Assembly: GCF_000001735.4 (NCBI RefSeq)
Contig: NC_003074.8
Location: forward strand, 5,270,101-5,334,100
Reading direction: 5' to 3'
From: Arabidopsis thaliana
Lineage: Eukaryota; Streptophyta; Magnoliopsida; Brassicales; Brassicaceae
Length of the DNA stretch: 64,000 nt
The notes under the pieces are model-generated. The model did no database searches. It was not told the origin of the DNA and saw only the letters and a program-made list of their open reading frames with translations. Of this stretch, positions 7,857 to 16,641 are shown in pieces (the stretch's first letter is position 1; every line of letters begins with the position of its first letter). The translations under genes were made by a program, and so were the position numbers.

Positions 7857-7865
7857 GTGCCAAGG
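7857..7865 (+). repeat. Left target-site duplication of the MULE (GTGCCAAGG)
   Basis: Nine bases identical to 16633-16641. A 9-bp duplication is the typical Mutator-superfamily target-site length. The base preceding each copy is also C, giving a 10-bp direct repeat. Confidence 0.8.
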
Positions 7866-8356
7866 GGACCAAATTCTCAGCGGCTCCTCTTGGTTGAAGA
7901 GTAATCTCATATACTCTTTTTATAAAAATTTGTTTTTGATTTTTTTTATTCCGTAAACGAAGTAAATTACTCAGAAAACCCTAAGAATATTGCTTAATTA
8001 CAACCCAACCAGGGCAAATGGATCCTAAAATAATCCAAGTCCACTGTTTTCGGGTCAAATCCAAATAAAACCCTAATTCCCCTAATTCTCTGCGGTAAAA
8101 TCGATTCACATCTCTTTTCCTTTGTTTCTTCTTTATTTCTTCACTGTAAAATCCAGTAAAATCATTCTCAATTCTCGTCAACGACAACAATATAACTGTT
8201 CGTCGATCTTGGTATATCTACAGGAAACTAAGAAATTGGGGTAAGTGATTTAACTGTTCGTCGATTTGATTCGAGTTGTTTCAGATTGGGTTTTGTGATC
8301 GAAATTGATTGAAGAGTAGTGCTAATCCAAATGATTTTGTTTGTAGGTTTGGAGAA

Positions 8357-11317
8357 ATGGCTCGAACAAAGAACGCATGTGTGCCGTTGGCGGTGGCGTC
8401 CGCGGCGGAGGTGGTGGTTTCACAGACAATCAATGACGAAGTAGTAGTAGCGTCGGCTGTTGAAGTGGATTCTGAAGCAACAAATTCAATCTCTAACGAC
8501 GATAGAGCGGTATGAACTTTAAACTTTACACAATTAGAAAAGTATAACTATGTATGAATTTGGTATATCTTTGTTGATATTGTAACTTAGAAATTTTAAA
8601 AAGTATATCTATGTATAAATTAGTATATCTATGCATAAATTGAGTATATCTATTTTGAATCTAACTTAGAAATTTTCGAAACTAAAAACTAGGTATATCT
8701 ATGTTCGAATATAACTTACATATTTTAGAGACTAAACAATATATCTATGTATAAATTAGGTATATCTATGCTGATTTCTACCTTTAAATTATATGAAACT
8801 AAAAAGTATATCTATATTTAAACTAGGTATATCTATGTTCGAATATAACTTAGATATTTTAGAGACTAAAAGGTATATCTATTTTCAAATTAGGTATATC
8901 TATGCTGATTTCTACCATTAAATTATACGAAACTAAAATGTATATCTATATTGAAACTAGGTATATCTAAACTTGAATTTAACTTATAAATTTTCAAAAC
9001 TAAAATGTATATCTATGTATAAACTAGGTATATCTATATTCGAATCTAACTTATAAATTTTCAAAACTAAAAGGTATATCTATGTATAATCTAGGTATAT
9101 CTATGTTGATTGCAGGATTCTGATGAGGAAACTGAAGCTCTTCAACCTCTTAAAATGTACTTCGGTCCGAGTGAGTATACAAAGCCATTCAAGATTACAG
9201 CAAAGTGTTATCTTCATAAGGCAGTCGGATTATTGGAGACTCATCTTAAAGAGTCTGAGTTGAAGTGGTTTTTGGAGCACCCACAATTCAAACACTTCTT
9301 CCACATGCATAAGGATCCAAATCATAAGGTGATGGGTATGTGGCTGTTATTTCTTCGTACAACATGTTTAGATAAGAAGAAGGAAGTATGGTTTATTGTC
9401 AATGGCGTACCGATCCGGTATTCTCTCGAAGAATTTGCACTTATGTCAGGATTATACTGCCATAATTATCCCAAACCCTTGGACAGCTTGGGCTGTACCA
9501 CTTTTGCTGGCAAGATGTTTGGACTCGGAGCAACAGTTCAGTATCTTGATGTGGAGAATAAGTTATTGTCTATGAAAAAACCTTCTGATGCTCGTCTGAG
9601 GGTAGCTGTACTATATTTTTTATGTAGTGTAATCGTTGGAAAGGGTAAGACAGGACCAAACGCACCAAATGTGGAGAAGTTCTTCCTTAGGGCTGTGGCT
9701 GATCTAGAGTTGTGCAAAACATTTCCGTGGGGAAGATTTGCATTTGAAAAAAATGTGAAAGACATTTTCTATCTGATGAAAAAGTGCAATGGAGTAGTTG
9801 GTCCACAAAAGGTGTTTCCTAGTTTTGTTATGCCTTTGGAGGTATGTCATTTCATTATGCATTTATGAATTGTTTTAAGAAAGTTAAACTGTGTACAACT
9901 GTGTTTTTATTAGCAGTTATACTTATTAGTTTTTGAAAAATCTTGTATTGTTTTTATGTAGTATCTAGCATTTGAGGCGATCCCAGTTCTCAGGGAAAAT
10001 TTCTGCGAAGATATTGAATCCGCAGATCCTCAGTGTCCCCGGATGTGTAAAATGAAGTTTAAATCAAGCACTATGAAAGGGTTTCCAATGTCAGATGTGT
10101 ATGACAAACTCGGTACAACTAAGGTTAGTGATGACATATTTATTAGTTATCTATCATGTATCATGTATGTTCTATCATGTATGCTATATTAATTACTTTC
10201 TTATCATGCACAGGACATTCAGAGTATCTTGGCTCCAACTCCTGATGAGAAGCTACTTTTGGAAAGAATTATGGATAAAGAGTGTGGAGTGAATGATGTC
10301 GATGATCTAATAGCTGATGGTTGGAAGAAACGTCTAGTTGATGAGGAGAGGACTATATGTTTTGAACCGTTGTTCAATGAAGATGTAGCACACCGGAGCT
10401 TTGTGGCTAATAAAGCTCCGTCTACTGTGGTAAAAGCTCCAAGAAAAGCCGCAGTGGAAAAGAAAGGCAAGGGAAAGGCTGCTGCAGCTCTGACTAGTCC
10501 AAGTGATGAAGGTTTGACTAGTCCAAGTGATGAAGGTTTGACTGAGGTTGTAAACGAAATGAAGAATTTGATGGAGAATGGATTTAAGTCCATGAACAAG
10601 AGGATGAAAGATTTCAGTAAGAAGTATGAAGAGCAAGATAAAAGACTGAAACTGTTGGAAGCTGCAATCAAATCAATTCAATCAGGCATTAGAACTGAAG
10701 ACGCTTGTGGTTCAAAGGAGATTGATGATAAAGAAAACGAGCTGGAGGAAGGGAGTGATGCAGAGACTGAGATAGACAAAGAGGTGGCTCAAGGTGATAA
10801 GGAGAGAGAGGTTGGAGAAACAGAGACTGAGATAGACAAAGAGGTGGTTCAATGTGACAGTGATAAGGAGGTGGCTGAAAGTGAGATTGGGGTGGCTGAA
10901 AGTGAGAAGGACAAAGAGGTGCCTCAAGATGATGAGATGGATGGAGGTAAGGTGGCTGAGAGTGATGGAGAGATGGATGGAGAGAAGGACAAAGAGGTGC
11001 CTGAAGATGATGAGATGGATGGAGAGAAGGAGAAAGAGGTGGCTGAGCCAAGTGAGATTGGGATGCCTGAAAGTGAGAAGGACATAGAGGTGGCTGATAG
11101 TGAGAAGGAGAAAGAGGTGCCTCAAGATGCTAAGGTGGCTGAGCCAAGTAAGAAGCGAGGAAAGGCACATGAGGATGGAGATGATCCTAGTGAAGAGGTA
11201 GTTAAAAAGCCTAAGGTGGTCAAGAAGCTGGCAGAGTCGAGGACGGATGCTAAGCCGGTGTATCGGAGTCCTACAATGACGAGGTATAGGAGGAAAAAGA
11301 CAAAGAAGAATGTTTAA
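8357..11317 (+). CDS. Transposon-encoded DUF1985 / coiled-coil / acidic-repeat protein
   Basis: Four exons join in phase 0: 8357-8509, 9116-9841, 9962-10123 and 10214-11317, giving about 714 aa. A leader intron ends just before the ATG (TTTGTAG acceptor at about 8346). Exon 2 holds a DUF1985 domain, typical of proteins carried by Arabidopsis MULEs. Markers are YFGPSEYTKPFKITAKCYLH, HFFHMHKDPNHKVMGMWLLF and GVPIRYSLEEFALMSGLYC. Exon 4 encodes a basic Ala/Lys linker, a perfect 24-bp tandem duplication (LTSPSDEG twice), a coiled coil (EVVNEMKNLMENGFKSMNKR) and a long acidic region of near-repeats (EKDKEVPQDDEMDG and variants). It ends in a basic tail (MTRYRRKKTKKNV). DUF1985 proteins are often joined to a Ulp1-type protease; none is present here. 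The role is unknown. A DNA- or chromatin-binding accessory protein is possible by analogy with VANDAL elements only. Confidence 0.85.
8510..9115 (+). repeat. Tandem motif array in intron 1 of the DUF1985 gene
   Basis: The 606-bp intron is built from about eight degenerate 67-bp units. Each unit carries the motif GTATATCTA twice, with spacing alternating about 21 and 46 bp. I count 15 exact copies plus near-copies such as AATATATCTA and GTATAACTA. All point the same way, commonly as AGGTATATCTATG. The donor (GCG|GTATGA) and acceptor (TTGATTGCAG) of the intron are intact. Confidence 0.9.
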
Positions 11318-11674
11318 GCAATTTCAACTCTTGGTTTGTTTTAAGTATAACTATGTTGGTTGTTGAAAACTTGGTACATCTGTTCGAACTTGGTACTTGG
11401 TTTTTTTTTGTATTTCTCCTTAAGCTTTTGAAAACTTGGTACAACTGTTGAACATGTTTATTAGGGTTTTTGTTTTATTTTGGTATATCTACTTATGTTT
11501 TGTAACACTAGGTATAATTATATGTTTTTGTAATTGATAAGAAAAGAATTTTAACCGAAATAACTAGATTCAACACAACACTTAGTCTTTATAATTAGAT
11601 TCATATCCATTCATCACATCAAATTCAACACTTAGTCTTCATAATTAAACATTACAACACTTACGCTTGAATTT
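11318..11674. other. Non-coding spacer inside the MULE with scattered motif variants
   Basis: The 3' side of the DUF1985 gene. It carries GGTATATCTA at about 11482, GGTATAATTA at about 11511 and weaker forms (GGTACAACTG, AGTATAACTA). The convergent GRF gene ends at 11675. Confidence 0.6.
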
Positions 11675-12245
11675 CTACGACAAACACAACATGCCAACAA
11701 TTGCCATGGTTATTAAACATCCAGAACTAAAAATGATTATCATATTAAAGTCCTTCCCCTTTTTGTTCTTTTCCATCGGATCTCTTTCCATCCTCTCTTG
11801 GTTCCTTTCCATCTTCATCACTCTTACTTCTTCTTCAAGAACACCGAGTTGAAATTCCAATTGTTCAATCTCATGTGTAAAAGCCTCATCTACCCACTTA
11901 AACACATGATTGTCGTTCATAAGCTACATTTTGAAATTGTAAAAATTGTTAAATCACATGTATATCTATGTATAAACTAGGTATATCTATTAGGTATATC
12001 TATTAGGTATTTCTATTAGGTAAATCTAGGTATTTTAGTGACTAGTCAAATTAGGTTTATCTATACCTTTTTTCTGCAGCTAAACCACACCGGTAATAAC
12101 GACGGTACGGATTTGGATTTGATCTTGAAATCCTCTCAACGATTTCATCGCCACACCAACACTGCTTTGGAATTCCAGGAACCATTGGTCTTGGTCGGGA
12201 AACGGAGGTTCCACACGAGTTCGATGCTCCTGAGAGGTGGCTCAT
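11675..12245 (-). CDS. GRF-type zinc finger / coiled-coil / membrane-anchor protein of the MULE, probably frame-broken
   Basis: Exon 1 starts at the ATG 12245-12243. It carries a GRF-type zinc finger recognised by CWCGDEIVERISRSNPNPYR followed by RYYRC. Exon 2 (from about 11929 to 11675) encodes NDNHVFKWVDEAF, a coiled coil (EIEQLEFQLGVLEEEVRVM), a basic linker and a C-terminal membrane segment (FNMIIIFSSGCLITMAIVGM). This finger/coiled-coil/TM layout recurs in small proteins carried by plant DNA transposons. The exons do not join cleanly. The only good donor (AAAAAAG|GTATAG, ending at 12067) leaves two bases, and the obvious acceptor (AAATGTAG|CTTATG) then gives AGC TTA TGA, a stop. A one-base change, perhaps in the A6 run before the donor, would explain this. 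The intron holds copies of the GTATATCTA motif. Confidence 0.6.
11940..12066 (+). repeat. Second cluster of GGTATATCTA-type motifs
   Basis: Located in the intron of the GRF gene. Successive plus-strand copies are TGTATATCTATG, AGGTATATCTATT (twice), AGGTATTTCTATT, AGGTAAATCTAGG and AGGTTTATCTATAC, spaced about 14-22 bp. They read as AGATATACC along the GRF transcript. Confidence 0.8.
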
Positions 12246-13345
12246 AATTCCCTGAGTTTTGGATTTAGAAATTCTAGAATATTTAATAGATAAACCAGGT
12301 TGTACAATATGAATCTTCAAACTCCGAAATCGAAAATTGTCAATTGCATATCAGAAATCTATAAGTGAAACGTGAATTGAATGAAAAATGTACCCAGAAA
12401 AACGAAATGCTTACCAAATAATTCCACTCTTCTCTCTTTTTCTCTCTTCTTCTCTCTTCTGAGTCTTCTCTCTTCTTGTCTTTTCTTCTTCTTTTTCGAT
12501 TTGATTTTCTGATTTTAATTCATAATAGGGTTTTAAAAAAATTCTGCGAATTGGGGGAAACGAAAATTTTGGGTGAAAATTTTTTGATAGTGTGAAAAGT
12601 AATGTGAACACGTTTCTTATAGTGTGAAAAAGAATTAACCGTGGGACCCGCGTACGAGTTGTTCGGAACAAAAAAGGTGGGGCCCGCAAACTCTTTGCAC
12701 ACAGATATTCCAAGTTAACAGGTTGTACCTGTGTATACACAGTTTGACTTTTGGGGGTTTTATAATTTTATTAGATATACTTAATTTTAAACTAAACAAA
12801 TTTAGTTATACCAAAGAGTTTTGATGTTTTATAAACATTCCACATATTTTCATAGGAAAATATGTCTGAAAAATTCAATTTTGTGTGTTTTGCAATGTTA
12901 TGATGATAATAATTATAAAGTCATCTTCAAAGTGTAAGGTGTTTCTTGTATAACAAATGAATTTGGTAACGACTAATTTTTTGAAGTTTCATTAAATTAT
13001 GATTTTATCAATCAGTAGTTTTAATACTCAACATAAGTGGTATAATTTGTATAAGAAATAACATTACATCAAATTTTGTTGCAAATTAAGCACATTTGTT
13101 ACATTTGTGATAGTTGTACCTTTACAAAACCAAGTTTAAACAAGTTTTACAAAACCAGAGAGTACAAAAAACACGAATTTAGAGACATACATAGTTCTAC
13201 CATTTAAAAATTAAGTTTAACCGAGTTTTACAAAATCTGAAAGTACTTAAAAACATGAATTTAGAGACATACATAGTTCTACCATTAGAGAATAAAGTTT
13301 AACCGAGTTTTACAAAATCTGAAAATATTTAAAAACACGAGTACA
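12246..13345. other. Intergenic part of the MULE upstream of the GRF gene
   Basis: A polypyrimidine tract (CTCTTCTCTC repeats, 12426-12495) lies in the likely GRF promoter or leader. The rest is AT-rich with no recognised coding domain. A tandem repeat lies at 13130-13340. Confidence 0.55.
13130..13340. repeat. Tandem repeat of about 80 bp, 2.5 copies
   Basis: Units contain AAGTTTAACCGAGTTTTACA, then ATGAATTTAGAGACATACAT, then AGTTCTACCATT. The first copy is more diverged (CAAGTTTTACAAAACCAGAG) and the last is cut off just before the transposase stop codon. It probably covers the transposase 3' UTR. Confidence 0.85.
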
Positions 13346-15781
13346 TTAATTTCCGCTTGTGTTTTGGCTAACACTTTCGTGGTTTGGAAAAAACCAGCTC
13401 TCCAAGTTTCTGCCTTTCACACGCTTATTCTTGGGGCGACGTTCTCCAACTGATGGGTGTCTAGTTTCTTGAACTCTTCCCTTTTTAACAACATGAACCG
13501 GAGGATATGCAAACAATTCTTGGATTTCACTTGGAATAACCCACTCTGACTTATGCGGCACCGGATAAATGGTTCTAACATATGCCATAACCCACATCTC
13601 AACAAAGTAATATTTTGTGATCAAATCATATAAACTTTTGACCTCCTCGGATCTATCTTTCTGTTTCAAGTGAGTCATCACAGCCGCTATTGAGTGTACA
13701 CAAGGATACTTGTCCAAGTCAAAACAACGACAATAACAACTTTTATTCCTCAAGTCCACCACATAGGTCTTACCATCGCGACCAATGACACTATATTGAA
13801 GCTCGTAGGTGTTAAGCTCTATCACCGGTAATTTTTGTGCAACTTCACATGTTTCATGTATCTCGTTCTCCACAAAAGGAACAAGTCTATGTGCATTTGA
13901 TCCACTTAAGGCTTCCTTCCTATTATTGCAGCTCCATTCCGCAAATTTCCCAATAATTGCATCTATCATAGGTAATAGCGCATACCCTCTCACATCCCTA
14001 AACACACCATTCATAGACTCAACCGCATTACTAGTGTCAATGTTGTACTTTACTCCCGGAAAATGACATCTTGCCCATTTTTCCAAATCAGTGTTTTCAT
14101 CAAGATAGGTGGCTACCTTAGGGTGCCTTCTTCTAAACTCTGCATATTCATGTTCAAACTCAGACACTGAACAAATGGATGCAATTCTTCTGAACGTTTT
14201 AGCAACCCCTTCTTTGTTGTATGCAACTTTCGTTCTCACATTCTGTGACAAATGATACACACAGTTTCCATGGTGAGAGCTCGGGTACACCTCAGCCACT
14301 GCCTTGATGAGGCTAGAATTTCTGTCAGACATAAAGACCAATTCCGTACTGTCTGGTATAACAGTTTTGAGAGTTTCGAAAAACCACTTCCAAGTAACAT
14401 CTTTTTCGCCATCAGCTACAGCAAACGCTAAGGGATAATGGTGATGATTCGGGTCTTGAGCTGTGGCAAAAATGAGCACACCTTTATATATAGTCTTCAA
14501 AAATGTTGCATCCACAATAATCACTTTTCTCATGACTTTAAATCCTTCAATGGCAGCCCCCAAAGCGACAAATAGGTACTTGAACCTTTTTTCTTCATCT
14601 AATACCACACTAGTCTTTGTGCCAGGATTCACCTTCTCTAACATATACAAATATTGATAAACCATCTTGAAACTCTCCTCGGGACAAGCACGAATATCAC
14701 TAACAGCTAGTTTTTTTCCCCTAATAGCAGTCGAGTATGACACAGTTGTACCATGTTTTCCCTGAACAAGGCCAATGAGACTTTTAGGAGTTGGGGTCTT
14801 GTACTGACCTGGATAATCTTCATGCAGTACGGTTGCAACTAAACGTGGTGTACCTCTCCTTTTAATGCCTGTAGCAGTATTCGACCGTACACATGTATGT
14901 AACTTCCTATATGTTCGAACCGAGAAGCGAGTTGAATCCTTAGCCTTCGAAAATCGTATGTACCATTCACACCCTTCTTCAGCACATTTTACCACATACC
15001 GCTTCTTATTCGAGTTGAGTAATGTTAGTCCAAAACAATTCCTATTTGCTCCTGTCTCTACTAAATATTTCACATCATCGCTATTTTCAAATTCTTGACC
15101 TATTACTAGATCAAGACCATCATCCCATGGACCTTTAAACTTAGAATGTTGGCTGTCACGTGGTTCCTCAACATATTCACGAATACCATCATTCTCCTTA
15201 GTCATACTCAGATTACTATCAACACCATTATCCACATCTCTAAGAGGCTCCAAAGGCTCTAAAGGCTCCAATGTCTCCAAAGGCTCAGCAAGTTGTTCTC
15301 CTAGTGGCTCATTTGCGTAAAGAGTTATAGCACCAACATTAGCTCTATCATCATTATCTAGACCACCGAAATTCTCCTCTTCATAATTCACACCAACTGA
15401 ACTCTTTCTTTGTACTCTCGATTGTTGCTCGTTTACGTCAACCATTTCCAACTCATTACCGACTTCTACATGCAAGACACTTCTACTTTTCTCTTCATCC
15501 AACGTGGTTAGATAAACATATACATCATCATCATCCCTAATATATAAATATGTAGGAGGTTTAACACCCGTTGGAATGTAACTCAATTTCCGCTTCATCG
15601 TAGATTCATCTATCTTTATCTTTGTGCATATCTTATCCACTAACCACGAATAAGTAATCTCCTCCATTGATGATGTCCTAAACAATATACCATACAAACC
15701 AACTACTCTTGGATTCCATTGATATGCTTCTCCGGTTTTTGAATAATATCCATCATAATCAAAATATATGATTATGCCCAT
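13346..15781 (-). CDS. MuDR/MULE transposase, 811 aa, uninterrupted
   Basis: A single open exon from the ATG at 15781. Residues about 225-300 form the MuDR N-terminal DNA-binding domain (GQEFENSDDVKYLVE to RTYRKLHTC). Residues about 410-510 form the MULE catalytic domain. The first Asp is in VIVDATFLKTIYKGV, the second in VFMSDRNSSLIKAV, and the C/H motif is HHGNCVYHLSQN. A SWIM zinc finger (CYCRCFDLDKYPCVHS) lies near residue 705, and the tail is basic. The N-terminal 180 aa are acidic with a short repeat (LEPLEPLEPL). The 5' leader probably contains an intron, since TTTTTTTCAG|GATAATG lies directly before the start and a candidate donor (ACA|GTGAGC) is near 16302. No frameshift or internal stop is present, so the protein could be functional. 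Confidence 0.93.
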   Translation of the reverse strand: MGIIIYFDYDGYYSKTGEAYQWNPRVVGLYGILFRTSSMEEITYSWLVDKICTKIKIDESTMKRKLSYIPTGVKPPTYLYIRDDDDVYVYLTTLDEEKSRSVLHVEVGNELEMVDVNEQQSRVQRKSSVGVNYEEENFGGLDNDDRANVGAITLYANEPLGEQLAEPLETLEPLEPLEPLRDVDNGVDSNLSMTKENDGIREYVEEPRDSQHSKFKGPWDDGLDLVIGQEFENSDDVKYLVETGANRNCFGLTLLNSNKKRYVVKCAEEGCEWYIRFSKAKDSTRFSVRTYRKLHTCVRSNTATGIKRRGTPRLVATVLHEDYPGQYKTPTPKSLIGLVQGKHGTTVSYSTAIRGKKLAVSDIRACPEESFKMVYQYLYMLEKVNPGTKTSVVLDEEKRFKYLFVALGAAIEGFKVMRKVIIVDATFLKTIYKGVLIFATAQDPNHHHYPLAFAVADGEKDVTWKWFFETLKTVIPDSTELVFMSDRNSSLIKAVAEVYPSSHHGNCVYHLSQNVRTKVAYNKEGVAKTFRRIASICSVSEFEHEYAEFRRRHPKVATYLDENTDLEKWARCHFPGVKYNIDTSNAVESMNGVFRDVRGYALLPMIDAIIGKFAEWSCNNRKEALSGSNAHRLVPFVENEIHETCEVAQKLPVIELNTYELQYSVIGRDGKTYVVDLRNKSCYCRCFDLDKYPCVHSIAAVMTHLKQKDRSEEVKSLYDLITKYYFVEMWVMAYVRTIYPVPHKSEWVIPSEIQELFAYPPVHVVKKGRVQETRHPSVGERRPKNKRVKGRNLESWFFPNHESVSQNTSGN

Positions 15782-16632
15782 TATCCTGAAAAAAACAAAA
15801 AAAAAACGTTAGCTATACCTAGATTTTCCTGTTCTAGCAAATTGTACTTCAAACAGCTATACCACGCTCATTTTCAGAAATACCAGTTATACTATTGAAA
15901 CAGCTATACCACGCTCATTTTCAGAAATACCAGTTATACCATAAATAGTACTTCAAACAGCTATACCACGCTCATTTTCAGAAATACCAGTTATACCATA
16001 AATAGTGCTTCACACAGCTATACCACGTTTCTTAGGTATACCTAGATTATTCTGTTCTAGCAAAGATTTTCGGACCAAAAACAGTAATCTGCCTAAGATT
16101 AACTACGAATCAACCATTACAGTACATTAAAATGTCTTAATAGACCCAGAATATATAGTTGCCAACATAATGTCCCTTAATTTCCAACACCAATTTCAAA
16201 TCTATCAAATCTAATTGAAATCTACAAAATTCAAACACAACAACACAATACTTGATGAATTAAGATGTCCAAAGTATAAGAAAAGAATGGTAAAGCTCAC
16301 TGTGAATAACAGAAGCAAAACGACGACGAACTTGGTCGATTGGATTCAACGTCGAAGGATTCGACGATAGTTGCAGTCGTCGATTTGGATTTTGTGAGGG
16401 AGGAAAAGAAATTCTGGGAATTTCTGATAGGTTAATATTTTGTGAATTAAATGGTATTGGTTTGGAGACTTAACCGTAATTAGTTGGTTTGGTTCGTCCG
16501 TCCGGTTCCGGTTTGTTGGGTAAGGGTAAACAAGGATTTTTAAAATTCATTAAGAGTATAGGAGTATGTTAGATTATATGAGAGTATTTAGATTCATTTT
16601 AGGAGAGTAGAGAGTATATGAGATCATCGTCC
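15782..16632. other. Transposase 5' leader/promoter and right end of the MULE
   Basis: Besides the repeat at 15850-16030 and copies of TATACCTAGATT near 15813 and 16036, this contains AT-rich sequence. The last 80 bp (16553-16624) are rich in GAGTAT steps, ending AGAGTATATGAGAT and then CATCGTCC. No coding sequence was recognised. Confidence 0.6.
15850..16030. repeat. Triplicated leader repeat containing CAGCTATACC
   Basis: About three tandem units of roughly 58 bp, each with CAGCTATACCACGCTCATTT followed by TCAGAAATACCAGTTATACC. Read on the transposon minus strand these give GGTATAGCTG and GGTATAACTG, related to the GGTATATCTA motif in the other arrays. The repeat lies in the probable leader intron of the transposase. 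Confidence 0.85.
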
Positions 16633-16641
16633 GTGCCAAGG
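16633..16641 (+). repeat. Right target-site duplication of the MULE (GTGCCAAGG)
   Basis: A perfect match to 7857-7865. Joining the flanks at this repeat restores a continuous pre-insertion sequence, TTTATACGTGCCAAGGAAAT. Confidence 0.8.

Follow-up and report, generated by a model that had tools for sequence, protein, structure and literature searches.

The window analysed here, a 64,000-nucleotide stretch of Arabidopsis thaliana DNA (NC_003074.8), contains a three-gene MULE whose non-coding DNA is filled with variants of one short motif, which raises the question of whether the arrays are read by a protein of the element itself and, if so, by which one. The original prediction had named the DUF1985 protein or the GRF-finger protein as the candidate reader, in a third accessory-gene architecture for sequence-specific anti-silencing. 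We consider it highly likely, judging from sequence comparison, that the element is a VANDAL transposon of intact appearance and sister to VANDAL21, and that its VANC protein would bind the element's own arrays so that methylation is lost there.

The borders proposed for the element proved to be exact: the same 9-bp direct repeat lies on either side of it, the ends match in inverted orientation only as GGAC...GTCC, and the alignments of its three best relatives begin at query base 5-6. A target-site duplication of 9 bp is a feature of MULEs. Degenerate terminal inverted repeats are given as a VANDAL feature in PMC10398659, and the element combines the two.

Table 1 Features of the VANDAL-type element in the window (positions are those of the window)
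Feature	Position	Strand	Details
VANDAL-type MULE	7866..16632		only GGAC...GTCC inverted at ends
Left target-site duplication	7857..7865		GTGCCAAGG, 9-bp direct repeat
Right target-site duplication	16633..16641		GTGCCAAGG, 9-bp direct repeat
VANC gene	8357..11317	+	homology to VANC21, DUF1985, DUF287
VANC CDS model	8357-8509, 9116-9841, 9962-10123, 10214-11317	+	714 aa, GT-AG introns, open
VANC intron 1 array	8510..9115	+	16 GTATANCTR, all on +; 15 are GTATATCTA
DUF1985 domain (PF09331)	9353..9754	+	E=2.9e-25
DUF287 domain (PF03384)	10217..10375	+	E=9.1e-25
VANC/VANB 3' spacer	11318..11674	+	2 GTATANCTR, 3 further GTANNNCTR
VANB-like gene	11675..12245	-	exons 12067-12245 and 11675-11923
VANB-like second exon	11675-11923	-	coiled-coil-like, hydrophobic end (judged by eye)
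VANB intron array	11924..12066	+	13-bp TAGGTATATCTAT units, antisense to VANB
VANB-like GRF-type zinc motif exon	12067-12245	-	PF06839 E=2e-4, under curated cut-off
82-bp tandem repeat	13110..13340	-	three units, each with TAGTT[G/C]TACC and AGTTTTAC
VANA transposase	13346..15781	-	MULE, MuDR DBD, SWIM, Plant_all_beta; stop-to-stop frame 820 aa
VANA leader array	15800..16045	-	units with CAGCTATACC, CAGAAATACC, CAGTTATACC

The element is a standard three-gene VANDAL. Its VANC gene, modelled with splice sites inferred from sequence, encodes both DUF1985 and DUF287, the two domains with which VANC proteins are marked in Hosaka et al. 2017 (PMC5735166). Residues 57-408 align with the VANC21 crystal chain (PDB 9lnj; also 9lnk; phmmer, E=5e-98), the sole PDB sequence matching the protein at E<=0.001, and beyond residue 408 the protein ends in a charged tail in which peptides are repeated; VANC proteins have been reported to contain variable regions with tandem peptide motifs (PMC5735166). 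A meeting report (PMC8756742) announced the crystal structure of VANC21, which is now present in the PDB; a model of our DUF1985 exon made by AlphaFold without an alignment had a mean pLDDT of 39.4 and was set aside. With the two domains of the VANC proteins and this alignment, the DUF1985 protein is not the new kind of reader that had been suggested.

The VANDAL21 (Hiun) locus at C2:10.003-10.009 Mb has the same gene order and orientation, with VANC forward and VANB and VANA reverse, and in the alignment part listed its DUF1985 exon matches the VANC21 chain. VANDAL21 also has DUF1985 followed by DUF287, a VANB with a similar zinc-type motif, and motif sites around VANC and VANB and in the VANA leader. 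On the other hand, identity is 50% over the DUF1985 exon and 46% over VANA, the charged repeats precede DUF1985 in the VANDAL21 locus but follow residue 408 in our VANC, and the VANDAL21 motif is YAGTATTAY, absent from the whole of 7866-16632, whereas ours is GGTATANCTR. The VANA frame, with its first M at 15781, encodes a MuDR-type transposase as in other VANDALs. The GRF exon is identical in 16 of 33 aligned residues, the C-C...RYY-C pattern included, to the exon that occupies the VANB21 position in VANDAL21, in which Pfam gave no match to a GRF domain. There is no third architecture, since the two accessory genes correspond to VANC and VANB, in the order and orientation of VANDAL21. The KIU or Ulp1-bearing VANDALs, non-TIR MULEs with VANC-related genes, are reviewed in PMC13317346; a Pfam scan of VANC exons 2 and 4 and of the VANA frame found no Ulp1 domain.

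The GRF-type zinc motif, which falls under the curated cut-off, could make the VANB-like protein the reader, but we regard this as extremely unlikely. Even with VANA21 and VANB21 missing, a VANDAL21 transgene causes sequence-specific loss of methylation (PMC5735166), and the relative at C2:3.59 Mb keeps the array while no GRF exon turned up in its aligned 1-kb stretch. In the window copy, moreover, the two VANB exons (12067-11923, minus strand) do not join in one reading frame under the simplest GT-AG model, so VANB is possibly broken or differently spliced in this copy.

The motif counts bore out the claim that the non-coding DNA is rich in the motif and the coding exons lack it. In the 3759 bp of non-coding DNA we counted 16 GGTATAWCTR, 23 GGTATANCTR and 35 GTATANCTR sites, with 0 of each in the 5006 bp of modelled coding exons and 0, 0 and 3 in the other 55,235 bp of the window; 500 dinucleotide shuffles of the non-coding DNA gave means of 0.048, 0.064 and 0.43 (maximum 1, 1 and 3). 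Because tandem duplication leaves motif copies non-independent, there were fewer independent events than the observed counts suggest. The wider form YAGNNATACC occurs 27 times in non-coding DNA, 0 times in coding DNA and once in the rest of the window. Single GGTATAWCTR sites are not enriched genome-wide (890 versus 988 for the reversed control). When pairs of GTATATCTA with a gap of 4-34 bp were counted in the 119.7-Mb genome, 30 were found versus 4 for the reversed control: 9 in the element, 19 in five related places (C1:13.72, C2:2.37, C2:2.38, C2:3.59 and C3:15.43 Mb), taken as relatives because they match the left 1247 bp of the element; the last 2 lie elsewhere. The element thus has what is seen with VANC systems, a family-specific short motif in tandem non-coding arrays.

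A de novo 8-mer search in ten elements ranked the motif top for the window element and for those at C2:3.59 and C3:15.4 Mb, and not for the one at C2:2.38 Mb. Of the three elements on the VANDAL21 side, two had the known VANC21 word at the top; in all three of VANDAL6 type, simple repeats scored above the VANC6 word, so a known word is detected by this method only if it is dense.

Sites were found where they had been placed, in the first VANC intron, the 3' spacer, the intron of the GRF gene and the leader of the transposase. From 8760 the VANC intron 1 array alternates spacings of 46 and 21 bp in 67-bp units, and 21-bp motif pairs recur among the array spacings; over all arrays the spacings show no 10.5-bp helical phase (resultant 0.19; 0.44 at 9.5 bp). 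The 82-bp repeats between VANB and VANA, absent from the earlier account, carry the frame variants TAGTTGTACC and TAGTTCTACC. The VANB intron of the C2:3.59 Mb relative has one 13-bp unit more than the window copy, which fits the expansion and contraction described for VANC targets.

Such arrays might also be by-products of AT-rich tandem duplication, or serve splicing or another RNA function, with no protein recognition. The clear tandem units of 13, 47/57, 67 and 82 bp agree with duplication, and GGTAT resembles a 5' splice site. However, related words reappear in separate units of different size, clade-specific words flank the same genes in relatives, and the words are antisense in the VANB intron but sense in the VANC intron and the VANA leader, a mixed orientation that does not fit an RNA role. 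We think this explanation very improbable. The array appears to be a real, functional-looking self-recognition array.

A further candidate for recognition is the transposase. Subterminal repeats of other transposons are transposase binding sites, one array here lies near the right end, directly 5' of VANA, and the transposase and VANC relatives of the family adjoin each other in the genome. Nevertheless, most sites are internal, in VANC intron 1, the VANB intron and the spacers, and the non-coding motifs of VANDAL21 were bound by VANC21 in both ChIP and EMSA (PMC5735166), so that VANA binding sites seem a poor explanation, with little chance of being correct. The same ChIP and EMSA results, taken with the transgene lacking VANA21 and VANB21, favour VANC as the reader by analogy.

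For the element at 7866-16632 we observed the gene content, the homology to VANC21, the family-restricted arrays and a motif that tracks the VANC clade. We infer by analogy that the element's VANC carries out binding and demethylation. Most probably VANC, with its DUF1985 and DUF287 domains, is the protein that binds the YAGNNATACC/GGTATANCTR arrays of the element's non-coding DNA; its core would prefer GGTATATCTA/CAGCTATACC DNA, and once bound it would cause methylation to be lost at the arrays, leaving the element's genes expressible and the element movable. The idea of a self-encoded, VANC-style reader is thus probably right, given the homology and the family-restricted arrays, while its novelty as a reader type has gone.

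Co-variation of motif and DUF1985 sequence among related MULEs, another expectation, was also found. A search with the DUF1985 exon gave 151 matches, of which the best 30 were taken; L047 is the same element as L043 and was removed, leaving 29 loci. Three words were counted in the flanking DNA, up to 1.5 kb in either direction, and 24 of the 29 loci could be labelled with one motif, the other five (L040, L055, L060, L062 and L068) having too few sites or a tie. On a maximum-likelihood tree of the 29 exons the labels need 3 changes (minimum 2), as few as in 0 of 200 shuffles, a clustering inflated by near-copies. Because VANA has the same ancestry, the tree alone does not select VANC over VANA as the reader. 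L040, 65% identical in DUF1985, adjoins the element's family on the tree with just one GTATANCTR in its flanks, and the VANC clade of L055, L060, L062 and L068 has no array of the three counted words in its flanks (0-1 sites each). YAGTATTAY occurs 1 to 8 times per locus in all eight VANDAL21-side DUF1985 loci.

As for VANDAL6 and its relatives, they likewise have a VANC-type gene and tandem motif arrays, and the AC-type word of VANC6, AGTTGTAC, is one base off the element's AGTTATAC. Their DUF1985 is more distant (44-46% in most loci), and the element has only 5 AGTTGTMC sites, its main arrays using another word. The target words of VANC21 and VANC6 are given in PMC5735166, VANC1 targets VANDAL1, 2, 22 and related types (PMC10398659), and VANC6 motifs have served for classifying a small element (PMC12312487). 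VANDALs with VANC are already published, and what may be new in this element is the motif. No paper linking GTATATCTA to VANDAL and VANC was found in a literature search whose scope did not extend to a 2022 VANC survey. That survey (Sasaki et al., EMBO J) reportedly counts at least ten VANC systems in Arabidopsis, and the element's family may therefore already be described.

The words of the different families can be aligned. Taken from the opposite strand, the word published for VANC21 is AGT-AT-TAC and that for VANC6 (AC type) AGT-TG-TAC (PMC5735166); those of the element are AGT-TA-TAC, AGA-TA-TAC and AGC-TA-TAC. We propose, with slightly less than even confidence, that VANCs read a common AGT-nn-TAC and retarget via the central bases they accept, the VANDAL21-sister clade, with words of both AGT-AT-TAC and AGT-TA-TAC type, being a transition between two specificities. 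The accepted centres would be AT in VANC21 and TG in VANC6, and in the VANC of this element TA, together with a relaxed third base; the shared frame, we infer, comes with a family-specific centre that sets specificity.

Ranked by the lowest z across three clades (25 of the 29 loci, group E left out), AGTnnTAC with its complement came first of 4096 three-two-three frames, a format picked after the motifs had been seen, and the reversed frame ranked 1352. The three clades have 24, 77 and 45 sites, or 3.3, 6.7 and 2.6 times background. An earlier ranking on 14 of the 29 loci, with clade C represented by six rich in the VANC6 word, also placed it first. Among the nine formats run, the frame was first only in 3+2+3 and the mirrored 3+1+4/4+1+3, and GA/CT-rich simple words ranked first in the other six.

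By group, with the DUF1985 and transposase match ranges removed and reversed controls in brackets, GTANNACT was counted 65 (23) times in 26.8 kb of the element's family, with A at the fifth position in 61 of the 65; 80 (8) in 17.3 kb of VANDAL21; 54 (14) in 18 kb of its sister group; 13 (8) in 12 kb of group D; 7 (2) in 3 kb at L040; and 37 (50) in 78.8 kb of background. The VANDAL6 types, at 63 (56) in 54 kb, are barely above the reversed control, with 40 GGACAACT in addition, and group E, at 8 (10) in 24 kb, is not above it. The sister group has centres AT 15 and TA 13, or TA 11 and AT 9 without L038, which was grouped by words and not by tree; L019, L026, L028, L029 and L037 belong to none of the groups. 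AGTnnTAC itself was absent from L041 and occurred once in total across the four group E loci.

If the frame holds, target switching by VANC reduces to the bases at two or three positions and the residues facing them, which is checkable against the solved VANC21 structures, and the targets of uncharacterised VANCs become predictable from sequence, an aid to locus-specific demethylation tools. Without a shared frame, the element is one more VANDAL family with its own word.

Four VANDAL21-side loci (L031, L038, L066 and L067) carry both YAGTATTAY and GTATAACTR words and possibly represent a transitional specificity. L067 is an exception on the tree: it lies inside the VANDAL21-sister clade but has five GTATANCTR sites, the word of the element's family. 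The same locus (C1:13711002-13714667) also contains GGTCGAGT 16 times, versus 0.17 expected, near a VANC-like gene.
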